From Tubulanus polymorphus (Eukaryota > Nemertea > Palaeonemertea > Tubulaniformes > Tubulanidae): a DNA stretch of 64,000 nt. Where the stretch lies: assembly GCF_964204645.1 (NCBI RefSeq), contig NC_134028.1:7977001-8041000 (forward strand), read 5' to 3'. The notes below the pieces were generated by a model. The model did not search any database. It saw nothing but the letters and a program-made list of their open reading frames with translations, and was not told the DNA's origin. Below, piece by piece: positions 34,714 to 64,000 of this stretch; position 1 is the stretch's first letter, and every line of letters starts with the position of its first letter. The position numbers and the translations under genes are program-made.

Positions 34714-35552
34714 TCAGTTTCTCAAATGCGACACGAGGTAGTGGCTTGTTAAAATATCAACCACCATATCTAAAGTATGACAGTGCTCAATTGTTATAAC
34801 CCCATCAGATACAGCCTCACGAATAAAGTGATGACGCAAGTCAATGTGTTTAGTTCTACAGTGACCTACAGGATTTCTAGCTAAGGCAATGGTGCCTCTA
34901 TTATCTTCCGAGATAACGGTAGGTGACTCTGGCATTGCACCTAGATCATTCATTAAACGCCGTAGCCAAATAACTTCCTGTGTAGCACTGCTGAGCGCTA
35001 TATATTCAGCTTCTGTGGTCGAGAGCGCAGCAGTAGGTTGCCGTTTGCCTATCCAGCTAACCGCACTACTGGCAAGCATGAATATATTACCGGTAGTTGA
35101 CCTTCGATCGTCGAGGTCACCACCCCAGTTCGCATCAGAATATCCTCGCAGACAGTCATCATCAGACTTCTTGTAAACAATTGATAAATCTGTGGTTCCT
35201 TTTAAATATCGCAGCACAGTTTAGCCGCTGTCAGATGTGCTTCTGACGGATCGCCACAATATTTACTAATAGTGCTCACAGATTGAGCTATATCCGGACG
35301 CGTAGCTATGGCGGCGTAAAGCAAACTTCCAACTATCGATTGATACATAATTTTATCCACAGGTTTACTCACACCATCATTTTTAACTAACTTGACATTT
35401 ATGTCAGCAGGTGTTGAAACAGGATATGCATCACACATTCTGAACTTTTCAAGCATACGTTGGATATATTGCTTTTGATTAAGCTTAATAACTCCGTTTT
35501 CCTGAACAACACTTATTCCAAGGATGAAATGCAATTCACCCATATCTTTCAT
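34714..35552 (-). pseudogene. Copia RT C-terminus and RNase H in two shifted frames
   Basis: Segment 35202-35552 carries MKDMGELHFILGI, the usual continuation of RT, and ends near ARCH-like AHLTAAKLC. Segment 34714-35217 carries YLKGT, RNase H SDANWGGDLDDRRSTTG and KHIDLRHHF. Each junction (about 35560 and about 35217) looks like a one-base indel, so the element as read here encodes no intact polyprotein. Not reconstructed. Confidence 0.85.
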
Positions 35553-38544
35553 TTGAAAGCGATTTTGAAAGATTACCTTTCAAACTATCTAACTCACGCA
35601 TAACACGCGAGACGATTATAAGATCATCAACATAGACGGCCACTATAAGTAATCCAACATCGGTAAACTTTATAAACACACAGGGATCAGCAGCACTCTG
35701 CTGAAAACCCAACGACACTATATAACGTTTAAATTCGGTATTCCAACACCTGGGCGATTGCTGTAATCCATACAACGATTTTTTAAGTTTACAAACACGA
35801 TTATCTCCAGGTTGCGCATATCCATCAGGTTGTTGCATATATATCTCGTCATCTAAGGTACCATTTAGAAACGCTGTCACGACATCCATCTGGTGGACAA
35901 ATAATCCCTCCTGAGCTGCAAAAGCTAGCAAAGATCTTATAGAAGAGAACTTAGCGACAGGGGAGAAAGTTTCTTCGTAATCTATCCCATATTGTTGAGC
36001 GAATCCTTTCGCAACCAGACGAGCTTTATACCGATCTACAGCTCCGTCTTCACCAATTTTCGCTTTAAACACCCATTTACAGCCAATTGCTTTTCGACCT
36101 TGTGGTAAATCAACTAGATCCCACGTGTCATTATCAATTAGCGATTTAAATTCTGAATCTGCGGCCATTTTCCACTCAGTGGCTTCTTCACTTTCCATGG
36201 CCTCTTTTAAGCTTGTCGGTTCAAAAACATTAAGCGCCATGTGCTCCCACTCATTAGATTCGACCGCCAAATCGGCAAAGTCATCAATCATAAACCGCGA
36301 AACGGGTTTCCGGTTTCTGTCGCTTCTTCTTGGTTCAACCACCGTTGGTTGATCACATGATTCAGTTTCATTCTCGATGACTGTGGTTTCATCTAACACC
36401 TGTTCAGCAGACTGTCCAAAGTCATATTCATTGAAGGCTACGTCACGACGTTTGTATATTTTCCCATTATTGTCGATCAGGCGGTATCCCTTTGATTCCC
36501 GATCGTAACCAACAAAACGAAGTTTCACAGCCTTATCATCGAGTTTTTTACGATGCTTATCTGGTAACATAGCATAAGCAATACACCCGAACACTTTCAC
36601 GTGACTCAGGTCTGGTTTGCGGTCGTACCAGAGTTCATATGGAGTTCTATCCCCATTTAAAGACCTGGTTGGTAGTCGATTTTTCAAATACGCGGCGGTG
36701 GCGATCGCTTCAGCCCAATACGATTTAGATAATCCAGCATGAGCAACCATTGAACGCGCTTTTTCACAGAGAGTACGATTCAATCTCTCAGCTACGCCAT
36801 TTTGCTCGGGATTGTGCGGGAGAGAAGGCTCATGGCGTATGCCCTTCTCTTTTAAGTACGCAAGAAACTCGTTAGACATATATTCCCCGCCATTATCGGA
36901 TCGTAGGGTGCCTATACGTTCACCACTATCATTACACGCGACCGACTCGAACTCTTTAAACTTTCCGAAAACCTCAGATTTTTCACGAATGAAGTACACA
37001 GCCGAGCATCGACTGTAATCATCGGTAAATGACACAAAATACCGTTTTCCTCCGAGGGATTCCGTGCTCATCGGACCACACACATCACTATGCACAATTT
37101 GCATCTTTCTTTTCGACTTTATTCCACTCGAGGATTTAAATGGTTTTCGCGCCATTTTTCCTTTTACACAACCCTCACAGAATGACGTCAGGGGCCCGGG
37201 TTTAGCAACGTGTACCCCTTTAACAAGATCGTATTTTACCACACGCATGAGTAATTGAGGATTGACATGAGCGAGTCTTTGGTGCCATAGTTCCATCTCT
37301 TTGTTTACACCATTGACCGCAACAGCTGCACTTTCATCACCAGCGGTAATGTACTGTAGTTCAAACAACTTATCAGATAATAAACCAACGCCTTTCACAC
37401 ATCCGGTGTTAACCTGAATTATACATTTTGTATTTTTGAACTCAACAGTTAACCCCTTCTTTATCACGGTGCGCACTGAGAAAATATTACAGGCCAGGTC
37501 TGGTACATAGAGAACATATCCCATGACCTCACTCCCACTGGCTCCATCTTCCAGAAGAGTAGTCAGTCGTACCTTTCCGTGACCTTGGGCACATATCGGT
37601 CGTCCATCACCAAGACCTACTCGCTGTGGCTCATCAAATGCTACATAATCCAATAGAATGTTTCTATTCCACGTCATGTGGCTCGAAGCACCGGAATCAA
37701 TCAGCCATTTGCTGTGTTTCTCATTCGCATTTTTGCCCACTTGAAACGCATGATCCTCTTCATGAGGCATAGCCGCTGCCTTTGCCACGTGACCAGTTTT
37801 CTTCGAAGATCCACGATACGGAGATACAGGACAATCCCGGTGGAAGTGTCCTCGCTCACCACACCCAAAACACTTGGCTGGCGGTTTCAATTTCCCTGGA
37901 TGCCTACGACCATTCTTGTTTTCGGCTCCCAGTAACGCTGCAGCCTTATTGTTGGCTGTCGGCGTCGCATTGGTCTCCTTAAGCTTCATCTCCTCATGGA
38001 TGAGAGCTTGCTGAACAGACGACAATTTCAGCTGGTCATTGCGCGCTTCAAGAGCAGTCACCAGAGTTGCATAACTTCTGGGTAGGCTGCCAAGAAGGGT
38101 AACGACCTGATCTTCTTCATCAACCGGACTATTTATAGCTGCTAGCCTATCAGTTAAAAGTTTCATTTCTTTTAAGTGACCCTCAACTGACGTTCCCTCC
38201 TTCATTTCCATTCTAAAATACTTCTTTTTTAGATAGATCCTATGGTTTAAGGAATCTTTCTGGAAATGTTCTTCAAGTAACTTCCATGCTACTTTAGGCG
38301 ACTCCGTGGACGTTATCAGGTATATTTGCGACGGCGCGATCAACATAACAATCATTCCAAACGCTTTCGCCATTTTCGCTTCAAACTCATTTTTCTTGAG
38401 ATCATCAGCGTCCTCCGGAAGTGTCTCAGACCCATCAATGTATTTCCAAAGCTCTCGTGAGCGTAGCATATGCCGAACTTGAAAGCTCCATGTCGACCAG
38501 TTTCCACCATTCAATTTTTCAACGGTCCACTTTTCTTCAGCCAT
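35536..38544 (-). CDS. Copia gag-protease-integrase-RT polyprotein (1002 aa, frame-broken at its end)
   Basis: Retrotransposon polyprotein. Gag N-terminus about 1-220. CCHC zinc knuckle C225-C238. Aspartic protease DSGA at 283-286. Integrase zinc finger H421, H426, C456, C459. Catalytic integrase residues D487, D550, E586 with the D,D(35)E spacing. RT ending with YVDDLIIV at about 971-978. The frame then shifts and stops at 35536, and the continuation is in another frame from 35552 downward. Length and order are those of a single-ORF copia element. The ATG at 38544 is 136 bp inside the 5' LTR. Confidence 0.95.
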   Translation of the reverse strand: MAEEKWTVEKLNGGNWSTWSFQVRHMLRSRELWKYIDGSETLPEDADDLKKNEFEAKMAKAFGMIVMLIAPSQIYLITSTESPKVAWKLLEEHFQKDSLNHRIYLKKKYFRMEMKEGTSVEGHLKEMKLLTDRLAAINSPVDEEDQVVTLLGSLPRSYATLVTALEARNDQLKLSSVQQALIHEEMKLKETNATPTANNKAAALLGAENKNGRRHPGKLKPPAKCFGCGERGHFHRDCPVSPYRGSSKKTGHVAKAAAMPHEEDHAFQVGKNANEKHSKWLIDSGASSHMTWNRNILLDYVAFDEPQRVGLGDGRPICAQGHGKVRLTTLLEDGASGSEVMGYVLYVPDLACNIFSVRTVIKKGLTVEFKNTKCIIQVNTGCVKGVGLLSDKLFELQYITAGDESAAVAVNGVNKEMELWHQRLAHVNPQLLMRVVKYDLVKGVHVAKPGPLTSFCEGCVKGKMARKPFKSSSGIKSKRKMQIVHSDVCGPMSTESLGGKRYFVSFTDDYSRCSAVYFIREKSEVFGKFKEFESVACNDSGERIGTLRSDNGGEYMSNEFLAYLKEKGIRHEPSLPHNPEQNGVAERLNRTLCEKARSMVAHAGLSKSYWAEAIATAAYLKNRLPTRSLNGDRTPYELWYDRKPDLSHVKVFGCIAYAMLPDKHRKKLDDKAVKLRFVGYDRESKGYRLIDNNGKIYKRRDVAFNEYDFGQSAEQVLDETTVIENETESCDQPTVVEPRRSDRNRKPVSRFMIDDFADLAVESNEWEHMALNVFEPTSLKEAMESEEATEWKMAADSEFKSLIDNDTWDLVDLPQGRKAIGCKWVFKAKIGEDGAVDRYKARLVAKGFAQQYGIDYEETFSPVAKFSSIRSLLAFAAQEGLFVHQMDVVTAFLNGTLDDEIYMQQPDGYAQPGDNRVCKLKKSLYGLQQSPRCWNTEFKRYIVSLGFQQSAADPCVFIKFTDVGLLIVAVYVDDLIIVSRVMRELDSLKGNLSKSLSNERYG

Positions 38545-38679
38545 TATAGACGTTCACAATTCACAAGCTTTAAAACACCAAACAGTTCACCAGAACAGAC
38601 TGGACAAACAACGTCAATTCATTAACTTAATTAGTCCTCAATTAACAACATTCAACCATCGTAGCCTGGGCCCATAACC

Positions 38680-39455: not shown

Positions 39456-42230
39456 AGTTTTGATTTGATTTGATTTGAACACTTTATTTTTCAAATATAA
39501 TTTACAGCATAGTGTACAAAGCATAATACAAAATACAGTAAATTAGACCTGGAGGGGCCTGTAGAAACTAAGGAATAGTTTGTATAAAACAGGTCCCTCA
39601 AAAGAGAAAAGAAAAAAAGAGAAATGCAATAAAGAAAATAATATGCTCACAGTCAACCCTTAACACACAAAATGCAATCAAAGTAAACTATGATAACAGC
39701 TTGATTAAGATATAATCATTTAATAAGCCAGTTATTTTCTGAAATATTCCAAAAACAATAATTTTAGTTCGAATAACTGTATGATAAAATCAAGCACAAA
39801 GTTGCTTTCTATAATTTCTTAGGAACAGTTTAGAATTTTCCATGTTTTTTAGATTTTCACTGATGTTATTCCAAAGTAAAGGGCCGGATACTTTTACTGA
39901 AAATTTTCTTCTTAGACTATTGAAAGAAAGTGTTTGTAAATCTTGACGTCGCCGAGTATTGTGACTGTGGATTTGAAAATTTTGGTTCCAATAATTTTCG
40001 AATGATTTCGGTAATTCGGAGTGGACAGATCTGTAGATAAAAGTACCTAGCTGAAGTTTATTAATATCTTTGAGCTTGAGGATATTAAAAGCTTTGAATA
40101 AAGGGTCAGTGTGCGCCAAATAATAGGAATTAGAAATTAGCCTGATAGCTCTTTTTTGCAATACAATTAATGGCTGAAGTTTATTTTCAAAATTTCGTCC
40201 CCAAACTAAGTTACAATACTGGAGGTAAGGATCAATAAGCGACAAATAAAGGGTACGAAGAGAACTCACTGGCAGCTTATGTCTTACTCTATTTATTATA
40301 CCAATGCTTCGAGAAACTTTTTTTTCAACTGATTTTATTTGATCGTCCCAGGTTAAATTTCTGTCAATAAAAACTCCAAGAAAATTTGTGACATTGACTT
40401 GTTTGATCTCTATATTGTTAATTGATATTCTCAAGTTATGTTTCAATAGTTTACCGAACACCATAAATGACGTCTTCTTTACATTTAATGACAGCTTGTT
40501 TGTTTGAAACCAGGTATACAATTTTGATAATTCAATGTTTACTGTACGTACTAATCTGTCTAAATTAATGTCACTATAAAAGGCATTTGTGTCATCGGCA
40601 AACAATATAAGTTTTAACACATTAGAAAATTTAATACAGTCGTTTACATATAATAAAAAAAGCAAGGGACCTAAAATTGAGCCTTGGGGTACTCCAGTTT
40701 TAACGGTACATAACGAGGATTTATAATTTTGAATTTGAACAAATTGTTTTCTATTCTTCAAATAGTCTTCAAACCAGTTGTTAGAGATGCCTCTTATTCC
40801 ATAAAAACATAATTTTCTTAATAAGATTTCGTGATCAACGGTGTCAAAGGCTTTTGATAAATCTAAGAATACCCCAATAGTTGATTTGTTTTCTTCTAAA
40901 TTTTGTGAAATTTCATCAGTTATCAATGTTAAGGCCATGGCAGTTGAATGGTTCTTTCGAAAGCCGAACTGGTTTGGTTGAATGATATGAAACTTGTTAC
41001 AATATTCGGTTAATCGATTATACACTATCTTTTCGAGAATTTTAGAAAAGCAAGGCAGTACGGATATCGGTCTGTAATTATCAAAAGAGTCATTATTGCC
41101 AGCTTTATAGAGTGGACGTATTCGCGCTACCTTCAGTTCAGCCGGCACTATACCGGAATTTAAGCTACAGTTAAATATATGAGTTAGCGGGTATTTTACA
41201 GAATCAATTATTTTCTTAACTACTTTTACAGAGAAACCATCAGCACCAGCGCCTTTGCTGGGTGAGAAATCATTTACAATCTGACTGATTTCATCAGGGT
41301 GGGTCGGGAAAAAGAAAAAGTTTTCATTTACTGGATCTGTCAGATATTCACTGAAGTGGACACCTGTATCTGGTATTTGATTGGCTAGGTTGCTACCAAT
41401 GTTTACAAAGAAAGAATTAAATTCATTAGCGATATTTTCATAGCCGTTTACAACGATACCGTTCCTTTTGAAAGAGCAAGGTAATCTACACCGATCATTA
41501 GAAGATTTTCCAATTAGACTGTTTAAGATATTCCATGATTTTTTCATGTCGGATTTGGCTGCAAGTAATTTAGTCTCATAATACTTTTTCTCGGCATATT
41601 TGAGTGTACGAGACAAGGTACGTTTGTAATTCAAATAATTTTTCAAATGTGATCTATTACGCAAAGATTTTCTGTACAAGCGATTTTTGTGTTTAATACA
41701 TTTCAATAATCCAGATGATAACCACGGTTTATGTAATTTATTTTCGTTTATTTTACGGGGAGTTGAAAAAGGAAAACATTCATTATATAATTCCATGAAT
41801 TTAGTGTTAAATGCGCTGTATGAGAGTTGCGGGTCTGCATTACTATAGATATCCGACCAATCAGTGGCCAGAAGAGCTCTATTGAATTTTGAAATGTTAC
41901 GTTCACAATAGTTTCTGTTCGAAGTCACCTCTTGGTCAATTTTGGGCTCAACGTGATTACAGACAGTAAAAATAGGAAAATGATCCGAAATATCGGTACA
42001 AATAATACCCGTACTAAACACATGGCGAATATCGTTACAAAAAATATTATCTATAAGCGTCGAGGATGTGGGAGTGATTCTTGTGGGTTTATCAACTAAT
42101 GGAATGAACCCAAATGAAGTCATATTTTCTAAATAGTTATCAGTTGGTCTGTGGGCGTTAACTTGTAGTAAATCGATATTGAAATCGCCCATAAGATAGC
42201 ATACTTTGTCTTCTCTATTAATGTTTATGG
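39456..42230 (-). mobile_element. CR1/L2-like non-LTR retrotransposon, 5'-truncated
   Basis: Carries one intact reverse-transcriptase ORF and ends in a short pentamer tail (AAATC repeats at 39460-39480 on the minus strand), as CR1/L2-group elements do. At the 5' side the frame meets a stop near 42230, inside the endonuclease domain, so the N-terminal part is missing. It abuts the broken GPCR 5' end. Confidence 0.85.
39790..42192 (-). CDS. LINE endonuclease (C-terminal part) - reverse transcriptase, 800 aa
   Basis: Starts inside the APE-type endonuclease: GDFNIDLL (2-9) and SDHFPIF (69-75). RT motifs in order: NYRPISVLP (about 372-380), GVFLDLSKAFDTVDH (about 440-454), GVPQGSILGPLLFLLYVND (500-518) and the catalytic FADD (531-534), followed by the thumb and a C-terminal region with SLIDPYLQYCNLVWG. 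No internal stop or frameshift over 800 codons, so the copy is young. The conserved frame extends upstream of the first ATG to about 42225. CR1/L2/Jockey group by motif style; exact clade not resolved. Confidence 0.9.
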   Translation of the reverse strand: MGDFNIDLLQVNAHRPTDNYLENMTSFGFIPLVDKPTRITPTSSTLIDNIFCNDIRHVFSTGIICTDISDHFPIFTVCNHVEPKIDQEVTSNRNYCERNISKFNRALLATDWSDIYSNADPQLSYSAFNTKFMELYNECFPFSTPRKINENKLHKPWLSSGLLKCIKHKNRLYRKSLRNRSHLKNYLNYKRTLSRTLKYAEKKYYETKLLAAKSDMKKSWNILNSLIGKSSNDRCRLPCSFKRNGIVVNGYENIANEFNSFFVNIGSNLANQIPDTGVHFSEYLTDPVNENFFFFPTHPDEISQIVNDFSPSKGAGADGFSVKVVKKIIDSVKYPLTHIFNCSLNSGIVPAELKVARIRPLYKAGNNDSFDNYRPISVLPCFSKILEKIVYNRLTEYCNKFHIIQPNQFGFRKNHSTAMALTLITDEISQNLEENKSTIGVFLDLSKAFDTVDHEILLRKLCFYGIRGISNNWFEDYLKNRKQFVQIQNYKSSLCTVKTGVPQGSILGPLLFLLYVNDCIKFSNVLKLILFADDTNAFYSDINLDRLVRTVNIELSKLYTWFQTNKLSLNVKKTSFMVFGKLLKHNLRISINNIEIKQVNVTNFLGVFIDRNLTWDDQIKSVEKKVSRSIGIINRVRHKLPVSSLRTLYLSLIDPYLQYCNLVWGRNFENKLQPLIVLQKRAIRLISNSYYLAHTDPLFKAFNILKLKDINKLQLGTFIYRSVHSELPKSFENYWNQNFQIHSHNTRRRQDLQTLSFNSLRRKFSVKVSGPLLWNNISENLKNMENSKLFLRNYRKQLCA

Positions 42231-43829
42231 TTCATGATTCATGAAAAAAAATCAATGCTCCCCCATATATTATTATTCACTAGTGAAATTAGGTCTATTC
42301 AAATCCTTTTCATTTACAATTTACAATCTATTATGACTTAAGAAATCAATACATCGACACAATTTTGTGATAATGCACTATTATGAAAATAGAATAGAAT
42401 AGAATGAAAATAGAATAGACCGATTATTGAATTCGTTCCTGCTGTTTCGAAAAATGAAAATTGAAGTATTTTATGAAAGATCGAAATATTCGTACTGGAT
42501 AAAACGAGGTTACAGATAATTGAAATTTAAAAAAAAATAAATCAGTACTTTGCACGAAAAATTACCCATGTAAAAACTAAACTACGCACGTTGGCGGATC
42601 CAGCGGGGACGTACTCGGCGTGTGCCCCCCCCCCCCTATTTTTGCCAAGCAAATTTTTTTCAAGCCAATGTATATTAAATAATCCGCCCCTAATTCACTG
42701 ATAGTAACTATACAATAAAGATAAAAATCACTAGATCCTGCTCCGGTGCCAAAGTCAATTTTACTGAAATTTCGAAATCTGAACTACACGAAAGCTTGCG
42801 TATGTTAGATCGGCGTTATTCGAAAATCGGAAGGAATATCTAGGCTCAAAATTGTCCAGTTCATTGTCCTATTAAAATCTATCTTTAAGCCAGATCAACT
42901 TCTCGTCTGCCTACATCGGGACAGACATTCCAAAAAGTCTAGACGATTAGCGTACATTTCATGTGTTGGCCGCGTTGTTGATTCATTACTTAGAAAGAAA
43001 AAAGTAAACTGACTCAGAACCATGAGCCGAAAAGTCGGAAATTTATCAAAAGGAGTCGCGTAACAGTGTCACGTAGTGTGTCTGGATCAGTTAGTTTTCC
43101 TCCTAGAATGTTGTTCTATAGGGAGAGTCACCTTCTCTGTGCAAAGTAAGTTCAATTTGCAGTTTTGACAATTTTTCAGTTGATATCCCTTAATCAGACT
43201 TTTTCTTAGCCATACAATTTTGGAGTCTCTCAACCTATCCAATTACGCAAGTAGTGTCGCTCTATTTCTACTAGGGTCAAAATTAATTCAGATCTACGGA
43301 TTTGGAATCATCATATTTCGGCGAGGAGCCATAGTTTGACTTTCCTAGAGCCCATCCACGTAGTTCACCAACGTGCACTGAAAGCTTGCGTGAAATAGCA
43401 GTGAAATAAACAATTTTGGTTTGAAAATTTGATTCATTTAAACTACAAGTCCGTTATTAAATAGAGTACTAGTTATATGGAACCTTTTTCTGATAATGCG
43501 TGCCTATTCATTTATCGCGACCAGAGTAATTACAGGCTAGTTGTTGAAATTGTCCTCCTGGATCATAGTTGTGGGTTAGAGTTAACTCTTAAGATTAGTT
43601 CATTTTCACTGTTTTAACTCACGACTGTGGAACCGGGCCCCTGTAGTCTTGATGTTAGTTTGGCTGCGTCTGCTTTATCTATGGTGTGTTTCTGTTTCTC
43701 CTCTTTCATTTTTTCGCAATAAGTATGCCTTTCGGACAATCTGGATGAGAATGTTTTAAGACTTCGGTGTGGGCTTAGTCATCATGTCCATAAACGTACG
43801 CTGGCAAGCAAGGTTAATGGCTGTGCCAG
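42231..43829. other. Intergenic, repeat debris
   Basis: AT-rich DNA. A hAT-like fragment with ggcggatccagcgggg and a run of about 14 C lies at 42594-42690. A small imperfect palindrome at about 43537-43642 (ggttagagttaact...agttaac-like arms, ending gggcccctg) is probably another MITE. No ORF of interest. Confidence 0.4.
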
Positions 43830-54242: not shown

Positions 54243-56712
<2,470 letters not shown>

Positions 56713-59949: not shown

Positions 59950-62634
59950 TCATTCGACTGGTGGTGGTTGTGGTGGTTGTGTTAAGGATGGCGGTTCTCT
60001 ATTCGGGTCCTGGTTTCTATCCATGGTTAGATATACAGCAGAAGGAGCTCGAGCTGACACACACGTGCTGTATGGATTACCCGACGACGTTTTTGTTGGT
60101 ATTTCCACTTTAGTATATCCGCTACATTCCTCGCCATCATCTAACGATTCGTAGAGCCCCTCTTCGGTTTCCTCACCGGGCGGAAACCACGGTTCGTCGT
60201 AAACGTTCTTTATATCCCCGTTATACGAGGGATTAGCGATCCCGGTGTCCGGCTCGAAGCCGGTCATTTCTGTCGGGACTCTCTTTCGAAGTCGGCACAA
60301 CAACACGCCTCCGACGATGATAAGAATCAGGCCTATTATAACGACGACCGACGAAACTGCACCTATCAGAGCTGCTGTCGTTGACTCTCCAGTTGGATTA
60401 GTTATCTTAGTCGATATCTGTGTTATTGTGGTTGATCGTATTACCGATGGTTTAGGGGTCTGTCTAGTTTTTGCTGTGGTTGTCGGAATGGTTGTTGTCG
60501 TGGACGGTCTAGTTGTTGGTTTTGTGGTCGTAGTTGTAGTAGTTAGCTCTGTTGTCTCTGATGGTAAACAAGAACAACATTCTTTAAAGCCCGCCGCACA
60601 CGGCACCGAAAAAACGTTTTTTCCTCGTGAAAAAAACGTTTTCGATGTTTTTTGCTATGCCTTGTGCGGGGGAGGCAAAACACAAAACGCCGAACTGAAA
60701 AACGTTTTTCGCGAGCAAAAGCTACGTTTTGTGTAGTCGAAAACGTTTTTCGTCCCGTGTGCGTTGAACGTTTTATCGTTTGCGGGCAAAACGTTTTACG
60801 AAAAACGTTTTGTGAAAACGTGTTTTCTGTTTCGGCGAAACAAATGTTTTGCCGTGTGCGTTGGGCTTAAAGATCTTACGATATCTAAATTGTTATTGTA
60901 AGCAAGTAAAAATGAAACGACAAGCTCTTTTGCATTTCAAAAACTTCGGAAAATTGTGTAAACATGGTTACGTAATGTTTGGGTGACTCGAGAGTTTTTT
61001 CAAGACTGATTAATTACGAGTTATTCATTTCTAAATTCAAAACATAAAAAGATTTAACGTATATTTACTTACTGTATTTGGTACATTGAACGTAGGCGGC
61101 GGTACTAGATCCAGACCCTTCACCCGAACAAAAGTCATTATAACTGAAGAACGGTTGACGACCGCAGTTCACGACGGTTTTTTCGGTACCGTCGCAAACT
61201 ACACCAGATATCAGATAATCAGACGTAAAGCCGCCGATGGAATTGGGAGTCTTCGTGCGACCAACTCCGCTTTTGTAACCCAAACTACGACAGAAGACGT
61301 TCGCCTCGTTCGTCGACCAAGCCGATGTAGCGCATATGTATTTGTCGACGGCGGTGAAGTTACTAGCGCGAAACGACACTCTAGGGTATCCCGATACGTC
61401 AGAATCAGTGTGGACAGCACTACCTATATCGAATGTCACTAGAAAGAAAGTAAAGATACTTTTTATGTTATATTGATATACACTTCGCAGACAGTTTGCT
61501 CCAAAATTCAATCATGTTATTTGTCCTTCATCCTGCCATTTCATTTTTCAATTTTCTTATCATCAAAATTCATTTCTCGGGGCCGTCGGAACAGGGGCGG
61601 CCAAAGCCGCCCCACTTTTTTACAAGAAATTTTTCAAAAGCACGCTGTATCGCGTAGCAGCTCGTCGTTCTCTGTATTACGTGCTCACGACTTCTCATGC
61701 TTCTGTGAATGAGACCGTGAAATGGCCCCAAAACGTATCCCCGGCGATTGAATTTCAAAAAATTTTTCTAGGGGGCCCCCAGACCCCCCTTCAGAAATAA
61801 GCTTCGCCACTGAAAAATTCCTTCCGACGGCTCTGTTTCTTTGTTTGTTCTACTTCGGGGTGTGTGGTTCCCCCATTGGGTCCACAGCCGATAATGGCTT
61901 TCCGTACATCCGTGTCATGTGTAATAAATATAAAGTATGTGTGTATGAAAAAAAAATTATACAATGGCCATATACGACAAATCAAAATTATTATTATCAT
62001 CATTATTATTATTATTATTATTATTATCATAACAAAAACTTCATGCTTTCACTTTATTCATACACATCGAAATATATACATAAAATAAACTTGCAAGTGA
62101 CTCGATTTGGTCTGACGGACTCCGAGATCCGACACTTGACGATGGTGTGGAGACGTCATGCTCCTTTTACAACAAAACTAAAACCTTGTGATTTCCATGT
62201 TCATTCTTGAATTCGCACATGGACGATGACAATTCCAAAAATCCCACGAATGCAATATTGTCTACTATAATTACCTGACGGTTTGGTTTTATCGGCTGGT
62301 CTGTAGCAGAAAGCAGCGGCGGCGTATTTACTAGCAGTGCAATACATCACGTATTGGTCATTATCCCGAATACCGGGACATTGCCTCAATTCGGTCTCCG
62401 AGCCGCTGCAATTCATCCGACCAAAAAACGCTCTCCATTTCGGATGACCTTGTATCGAGCGGCTATCTTTGTAGGCCGAACCGATTGAGTACGGATCCAG
62501 TTGCTTACACAGTACTGTCGCCTCGACGTCAGACCAATTCATATCAGGACATATAAGGCCGTTTGGCTTCAGTATGAAACTTCTAACTGGACCATCCATT
62601 CCGAAGCGACTGCTCGGTACTTCAAAGCGTATAA
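59950..62634 (-). CDS. Transmembrane scavenger receptor with two SRCR domains and tyrosine-rich tail (5' end missing)
   Basis: Probable cell-surface pattern-recognition or adhesion receptor. Exons 62275-62634 (SRCR 1), 61073-61438 (SRCR 2) and 59950-60557 join at phase 1 borders, the classic arrangement for shufflable SRCR modules. Each SRCR has six Cys. SRCR 1 has LICPDMNWSDVEATVLCKQL and MNCSGSETELRQC; SRCR 2 has WSTNEANVFCRSLGY and GVVCDGTEKTVVNC. Then comes a Thr-rich mucin-like stalk (about 60 residues), a TM helix (LIGAVSSVVVIIGLILIIVG) and a tail of about 110 residues. Tail motifs in order: NPSY, VYDEP, GLYESL, GYTKV, NPYS, VYLTM, and a Pro-rich end. YESL and YTKV are 8 residues apart, as in an ITAM. 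The signal peptide and any further SRCR exons were not found up to 64000. Confidence 0.88.
60588..60867. mobile_element. 280-bp MITE with TAA target duplication (PIF/Harbinger-like)
   Basis: Ends AGCCCGCCGCACACGGC and, inverted, GCCGTGTGCGTTGGGCT. It is flanked by TAA (60585-60587, 60868-60870). The interior contains about eight copies of ACGTTTT in both orientations (AAAACGTTTT palindromes) and no ORF. It lies in the SRCR intron, 27 bp upstream of the acceptor for the stalk/TM exon. Confidence 0.8.
61570..61825. repeat. Degenerate hAT-like MITE in SRCR intron
   Basis: Has aacaggggcggccaaagccg on the left, and ctagggggcccccagacccc and cttcgccactga on the right, echoing the CAGGGGCGG termini at 9707. 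Imperfect. Confidence 0.35.
61985..62032 (+). repeat. (ATT)n microsatellite
   Basis: About 14 units of TTA/ATT with two interruptions, in the intron between the two SRCR exons. Confidence 0.9.
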
Positions 62635-64000
62635 CTATAAGAAAAAAAAGAAGAGAAAGGTTTTAGAAATAAACAAGAGAAGTAACTTGAAATTTAATTG
62701 GCCTTTAAGAAAAAACAATACACACATTGTTTAATCTATCTACAATAAATAATGTGAGCAAGGATCAATAAAGTATTTTGGATTTGAATGTATCTACAAA
62801 TAAATTAAACGGCAGCCAGTCTAACCAGGCTACCTTGATATTGGTGACGTAGGGCTTATCCACTCAAAATTCATTATCAAAATACGTGAAATTCTATTTA
62901 ATAGAACACAAGTCATGAAATAAATCTCATACAGAATGATCTCAAAACTTGTGCTTGTTATTTTGAAACGCCAATATTGATGACGTTGTGCACATTACAC
63001 AGCACCCCTTAGACAACGCATAGTAGGTATCGATATAACATTATTGTGACGGTTCTTACATCAGAAATAAGACGACATTTCTCTCACAATGGTTTGTCGA
63101 TAAATTTTGTTGGTACATTATTGCAACATAACTACAGTTTCCCCAGTTCCCCAGTCTTGTATCTTATGATGCCTCATATTTATAAATCGCGAACCGACGC
63201 CAAAGATCTTCGCCTATTTTCTAAGAATTTGTAACTTGGTCGGAATGCCACTAAACTATTTTTGCCATTTCATAACCACGGATTAACGCTGAAATTTGTA
63301 GAACACATACAGGGTGTCTCAGAAAATGTGTAACCCAACTTTTAGGATCAATTATTCATTAACTATAATTGGAATAATTTTTTTGTGAGGTAAGGTTGGT
63401 TGGTAGACCTGGATATTTGCTCAAGGATGAAATGTTGAAATGCAATCATAGAAGTCATGCATGGCTGAGCACTAACGCCAAAATTACGGAATATTCCATT
63501 GCATATTTTTATCTTTAAATGATCAGCTACTAATTGAAAAATTGATTTAGAATCACCAAATTTCACCCCTTGTGATATTTTCCTGTGGGGAATTGTTAAG
63601 ACCAAGGTATTCAAATTGCAACCAGCATGAATCGAAGACTTACATGTTCGGGAAGTAACAGATTTTGAGAGATACTGAATCTGATGTGTCAAAATCCGAC
63701 GTCGATCTCAACTGTGTATTGGTTAAAATGGTTATGATATTGAATAAGTTGCTGACAAGCCTGATTTGTAAATCCGACCTAGGATTTTTATCAAGAGATA
63801 TATATCCGTCTCAGCTGATATAATTGACTTAAAATGTACGTTCTGGGTAGGTCCCGAGACTCCTTAGACGATTTCGCGCCTTCGTCGCTCAATCTTTACA
63901 CTTGACCAAAAATGGTTCCGGTATGAGATAAGGTCGTTCCAAACTGAACTCGCGTCCCCGTCGCCCTCGCAACAAATAATCAGATATTGAGGCTTCGTAT
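62635..64000. other. Right-hand end, no exon identified
   Basis: Should contain intron or upstream sequence of the SRCR gene. A LINE/SINE 3' tail (aaggatcaataaagtatttt) lies at 62758-62785. A minus-strand ORF at 63363-63692 (109 codons, containing KFGDSKSIFQLVADHLKIKI) sits next to acagggtgtctcag (63309-63322), which resembles a transposon terminus. I recognise no family. Confidence 0.4.

Follow-up and report, generated by a model that had tools for sequence, protein, structure and literature searches.

In Draper, the two tyrosine motifs of the tail have separable roles, the NPxY in the clearance of corpses and the ITAM in Syk-type signalling (PMC4503800, PMC8092387). CD5 carries an ITAM-like motif beside its SRCR domains and signals through its tail tyrosines (PMC6292949, PMC8158487), and the title of a reference in one of these papers states that its pseudo-ITAM mediates inhibition (PMC6292949). 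WC1, a vertebrate SRCR receptor, signals via the tail tyrosine motif YEEL (PMC2906472). Receptors with ITIM, hemITAM or ITAM tails are also described from the invertebrates Botryllus and Hydractinia, and in Botryllus signalling and non-signalling members adjoin each other (PMC12065747).

Here we describe gene A, a predicted SRCR receptor gene that runs across the end of the window, the stretch of 64,000 nucleotides analysed here (C4:7977001-8041000). The window belongs to an animal assembly of 267.8 Mb in 77 contigs, in which a search for COX1 gave no match. Some invertebrates have many SRCR receptors, but to our knowledge their signalling is poorly understood; our literature search for SRCR, ITAM, invertebrate and cytoplasmic tail found no paper.

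Gene A and its domain plan

Joining ten exons at GT/AG sites with consistent phases (phase 1 throughout) gave a predicted type I receptor of 782 residues, which starts with MNISNYLLFGLIIRLSFVSS and consists of a signal peptide, five SRCR domains, a mucin-like Thr/Ser/Pro stalk, one transmembrane (TM) segment and a tail of 115 residues. Its features are as follows, position p of L004 corresponding to window position 64000+p, past the window end:

59950..60557, minus strand: last exon, with Thr/Ser/Pro-rich stalk, TM segment, cytoplasmic tail and stop; acceptor ACCATCAG/, joined in phase 1 to the preceding SRCR exon, frame open to the stop
59950-59952, minus strand: stop codon
60298..60375, minus strand: TM segment AALIGAVSSVVVIIGLILIIVGGVLL, 26 residues, followed by basic CRLRKR (hydrophobicity by sequence reading)
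61073..61438, minus strand: exon for SRCR domain 5 (Pfam SRCR 8.6e-10), splice sites CTTTCTAG/..A/GTAAGT
62275..62634, minus strand: exon for SRCR domain 4 (Pfam SRCR 1.8e-8)
62635..64000, minus strand: intron leaving the window
L004 3729-3810, 3080-3240, 1936-2092, 1625-1776, 839-989, 537-733 and 124-238, minus strand: seven upstream exons beyond the window, for the signal peptide and SRCR domains 1-3

Pfam PF00530 matches five stretches of the product (1.6e-62 in total), SRCR being the sole domain type found, with no enzyme or adhesion domain in the product. SRCR domains of group A have six cysteines and those of group B eight; domains 1, 2, 4 and 5 of gene A have six, and domain 3 has eight. 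The nearest PDB matches of the ectodomain are CD163 (M130; 1.7e-120), chicken PIT54 and CD5L, and LOXL2 and neurotrypsin are also among the matches. The model thus has what defines a membrane SRCR receptor, namely SRCR domains, signal peptide, TM segment and cytoplasmic tail. The SRCR receptor gene announced in the preliminary description of this DNA is borne out by the exon model, in which a signal peptide precedes the five SRCR domains and a stalk and TM segment follow them, and we take gene A to be a genuine, intact-looking receptor gene with a tail that is, by its motifs, of the phosphotyrosine type.

The last intron of gene A holds a short MITE-like element (window 60584-60871) with 22-nt inverted ends, 86% complementary, and rich in AAAACGTTTTTCG palindromes; a relative of this element (L074:4983-5059), 90% identical over 40 bp, is found close to the Syk gene described below. 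The downstream neighbour of gene A is a cytoplasmic-type actin gene (window 54273-56712, plus strand) with an intron after RHQ. Two regions of the minus strand, window 35536-38553 and 39790-42231, contain long retroelement open frames, identified by eye as copia-like gag-pol and LINE-type reverse transcriptase.

Tyrosine motifs of the A tail and their chance level

The tail contains the following motifs, their types being assigned by pattern:

59953..60297, minus strand: cytoplasmic tail, 115 residues, six tyrosines
60223..60240, minus strand: IANPSY, a complete Phi-x-N-P-x-Y of PTB-binding/endocytic type, membrane-proximal
60190..60201, minus strand: YDEP, Nck/Crk-type SH2 site
60142..60153, minus strand: YESL, after EETEEGL, first half of an ITAM-like pair; also hemITAM-like and Src-substrate-like
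60106..60117, minus strand: YTKV (SGYTKV), second half of the pair, Val at +3; matches the ITIM pattern as well
60067..60078, minus strand: NPYS, not an NPxY
60022..60033, minus strand: YLTM, PI3K p85-type SH2 site

All six strings of the preliminary description (NPSY, YDEP, YESL, YTKV, NPYS and YLTM) are present in this 115-residue tail on the minus strand, at the place it had given. Its account of the tyrosine pair is equally accurate: eight residues (DDGEECSG), the upper end of the ITAM spacing of 6-8, separate the Leu of YESL from the Tyr of YTKV, acidic residues stand upstream, and the second +3 residue is Val. Because of this Val, the strict ITAM (YxxL/I-x6-8-YxxL/I) has 0 matches in the tail, and a canonical ITAM is rejected. 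IANPSY has the hydrophobic residue at -5 that characterizes the NPxY of Draper/MEGF10/CED-1-like tails. The NPxY claim holds for IANPSY, a complete motif of a type that recurs in two other SRCR receptors, but not for NPYS, which we reject as a second NPxY or PTB motif since its tyrosine is in third place, the wrong register. Gene A also joins an SRCR ectodomain to an imperfect ITAM-like tyrosine pair, and is CD5-like in this works-like sense only. Searched against its own genome, the tail matched only itself at E < 0.6, and no match was found in viral contigs.

How much of this could arise by composition was estimated by shuffling the tail 100,000 times, all motif P-values being post hoc. The relaxed ITAM pair ([LIVM] at +3) appears in 1.3% of shuffled tails (P = 0.013), NPxY at P = 0.045 and Phi-x-NPxY at P = 0.008; the relaxed ITAM and NPxY appear jointly at P = 0.0007. 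Of the six tyrosines, four are followed by L/V/M/P at position +3 (P = 0.05). YxxM (P = 0.10), ITIM (P = 0.13) and YxxP (P = 0.62) stand differently: YDEP, YLTM and the ITIM reading are each, taken alone, no more than chance. The tail does exceed chance, though modestly, and the NPxY and the spaced pair account for this.

The finer claims of the preliminary description fare accordingly. YLTM as a PI3K site, YDEP as a Crk/Nck-type site and SGYTKV as an ITIM do fit their patterns, yet at the chance frequencies just given. The ITAM geometry stands as far as spacing and the relaxed pair go, but the strict consensus is missed and the pair is missing from all three other SRCR tails compared below. 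The larger proposal, a self-contained activating and inhibitory receptor, is not supported on these points together, namely an ITAM pair that departs from the strict consensus and does not occur in the paralogue or the other SRCR tails, and ITIM, YxxM and YxxP individually at chance; self-contained activating, inhibitory and adaptor signalling in A is partly supported at best.

Sister gene B and other SRCR tails

Head-to-head with A lies a paralogue, B, on the plus strand (L004 4468-9790, equivalent to window 68468-73790). The two start codons are about 660 bp apart, and a shared promoter is possible. Pfam also recognizes five SRCR domains in B (4.5e-53), and the two ectodomains share 41.8% identity. 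The tail of B, 29 residues long, ends in SAGVTNPTYAKGN and has a single motif, VTNPTY. The tail of A, four times as long, has stayed open. As the different tail of its sister shows, this part of the receptor evolves fast. Downstream of B, an RRM followed by an SR-rich exon marks an SR splicing factor gene (L005:6600-9990, plus strand).

Two further SRCR tails of the same genome could be compared. Gene C (C2:19.10 Mb; L048 = C2:19098501-19107000, plus strand) has a TM exon joined to the tail RLRRNRAKTSVTNIRNPAYAGPATKSKEDAEENIYCETK, assembled by eye from splice sites and carrying IRNPAY and ENIYCE; apparent fibronectin-type (III) repeats, also judged by eye, follow in its downstream exons. Tail D (L043:4207-4740, C5:17609207, plus strand) is tyrosine-rich, with YDLA, YSEP, YEEV and YANP, and is without an NPxY; its TM exon follows a large SRCR cluster on C5, to which it is assigned by position alone. 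No clear tail was found at the SRCR loci L044-L046 and L049, and that of L047 may belong to another gene.

Phi-x-NPxY is thus found in three of the four tails compared, as IANPSY in A, VTNPTY in B and IRNPAY in C, with post hoc shuffled P-values of 0.008, 0.003 and 0.001, while the ITAM-like pair is absent from B, C and D and found in A only. By sequence, the paralogues of the same genome speak for the NPxY and lend no support to the ITAM-like pair. This recurring motif, barely mentioned in the preliminary description, points first to a probable role in endocytosis or phagocytosis via PTB adaptors.

Signalling machinery, proposed mechanism and comparison with known systems

Proteins that could read such a tail are encoded in this genome. 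A search with the SYK SH2 region found a Syk/ZAP-70-family kinase gene (C2:4184722-4193900, plus strand, intact-looking; SH2 exons at C2:4185226-4186681, SH2 and kinase exons at C2:4185226-4190k). Its joined SH2 exons give both SH2 domains together with the helical linker (interdomain A), in one alignment stretch, residues 9-259. This tandem SH2 product matches ZAP-70 (8e-40) and SYK (1e-33) in the PDB, and kinase-domain-type exons with HRDLAARN, DFGMSRAL and WPLKWYAPEC lie downstream. This kinase family has been lost in some other invertebrate lineages. SHP2 (7.6e-66), the N-SH2 of p85 (1.5e-20) and CSK (3.3e-29) are found as well. PTB-domain exons exist; an exon-by-exon search for a clear CED-6/GULP-type PTB adaptor gave only a weak best match (E 0.002), which does not imply absence. 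Kinases, phosphatases and adaptors that could read the tail of A therefore exist in this animal.

We tentatively favour, at somewhat less than an even chance, the reading that A is an SRCR receptor for phagocytosis or endocytosis, in which a PTB-binding NPxY core is joined by tyrosines for SH2 docking, and that it works in the manner of Draper/MEGF10 and CD5/WC1. By analogy with the NPxY of Draper/CED-1/MEGF10, the membrane-proximal Phi-x-NPxY common to A, B and C would form a first layer that couples the receptor to PTB adaptors, leading to clustering and uptake. The second layer would be made of the A-specific tyrosines YDEP, YESL, YTKV and YLTM, which may be phosphorylated by Src-family kinases once ligand clusters the receptor. 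SH2 proteins, including the Syk/ZAP-70-family kinase, SHP2, p85 and adaptors, could then dock on these phosphotyrosines and turn uptake into a signal. Here YESL-x8-YTKV would serve as an ITAM-like or hemITAM-like element of imperfect form, not as the canonical motif. Sister B shares the ectodomain plan and has the NPxY alone; in this divergently transcribed pair, it may be the member for uptake only, or the partner receptor. A further step, that the two genes form a paired uptake/signalling SRCR system in which divergent sisters share the PTB-binding NPxY and one of them gained a self-contained phosphotyrosine array of Syk/SHP2/PI3K type, we consider unlikely. That A is an immune receptor at all is, from its sequence, plausible but unproven.

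Other readings of the same tail have to be weighed against this one. It may be mainly endocytic, the NPxY internalising bound ligand constitutively and the other tyrosines being incidental to a disordered tail rich in acidic residues and proline. CD163, whose ectodomain is the nearest among solved structures, is an internalising receptor, Phi-x-NPxY alone is common to A, B and C, and YxxP, YxxM and ITIM are each at chance level; yet the +3 residues of four of the six tyrosines (P = 0.05), a tail four times as long as that of B and kept open, and the tyrosine-rich tail D of another SRCR locus (YSEP, YEEV, YANP) fit it less easily, and we regard it as unlikely, if not strongly so. A true ITAM is possible: a Src-family kinase would doubly phosphorylate YESL-x8-YTKV, which would recruit the tandem SH2 of the Syk-family kinase, making A an activating immune receptor with an SRCR ectodomain. 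The exact spacing, the upstream acidic residues, the relaxed pair (P = 0.013) and the Syk/ZAP-70-family kinase, for which the two SH2 domains as well as kinase exons are encoded, all speak for such a receptor, which we nevertheless find doubtful given the Val in place of Leu/Ile at the second +3, failing the strict consensus, and the missing pair in B, C and D.

It is also conceivable that the two halves of the pair have split roles: YESL would be a hemITAM, while SGYTKV would recruit SHP2 as an ITIM does. A would then modulate or inhibit in the way of CD5 and tune a partner receptor, which might be sister B. SGYTKV fits the ITIM consensus and SHP2 is in the genome; inhibition through the CD5 pseudo-ITAM, as worded in the reference title (PMC6292949), and the adjacent FF/FcoR gene pairs of Botryllus, with an ITIM or hemITAM on FcoR (PMC12065747), offer models. 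We judge such a division of labour improbable: the ITIM-type match is at chance (P = 0.13), a pairing of the A and B proteins follows solely from genome order, and B, unlike the FF proteins, retains an NPxY of its own. A role outside immunity, in development or adhesion, for a receptor that has SRCR repeats and a phosphotyrosine tail would agree with the SRCR domains of non-immune proteins such as LOXL2 and neurotrypsin, both among the PDB matches; it seems very improbable, as A has no enzyme or adhesion domain and its several SRCR domains, TM segment and tyrosine tail are closer to CD163, WC1 and CD5.

The head-to-head pair with its contrasting tails is more interesting than the claim of self-contained signalling. 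Two sisters built on one ectodomain plan but with tails of opposite design, where the genome has retained a Syk/ZAP-70-family kinase, offer a direct natural contrast between uptake only and uptake plus signalling. If the array is conserved, Draper-type logic, an NPxY with an ITAM-like element, would be joined to SRCR recognition outside the vertebrates.

Like A, Draper, MEGF10 and CED-1 are single-pass receptors, and their tails hold both an NPxY for CED-6/GULP and, for kinases of the Src and Syk families, an ITAM or YxxL (PMC8092387, PMC4503800). Their ectodomains are EMI/EGF-like, whereas that of A is SRCR only by Pfam, and we claim no sequence homology; Draper and MEGF10 are described with an ITAM, whereas A has Val at the second +3. 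CD5 and CD6 share with A the SRCR ectodomain, one TM segment and several tail tyrosines including a pseudo-ITAM pair, but they have three SRCR domains, belong to vertebrate lymphocytes and have an unrelated tail, and A adds the membrane-proximal Phi-x-NPxY. Tandem SRCR domains and one TM segment are also the plan of WC1/CD163c-alpha and CD163, with a YxxL-type signalling tyrosine in the WC1 tail; these are vertebrate proteins of gamma-delta T cells or macrophages, differ in SRCR number, and no NPxY is noted in them. The likeness of A to CD5, CD6, WC1 and CD163 is drawn here from the features just named. The Botryllus FcoR/FF and Hydractinia allorecognition receptors have Ig or sushi ectodomains and polymorphic loci, whereas A and B have SRCR domains and are known here from one genome sequence. 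Read as a paired uptake/signalling system, the two SRCR sisters would parallel both CD5/WC1 and the FF/FcoR of Botryllus.
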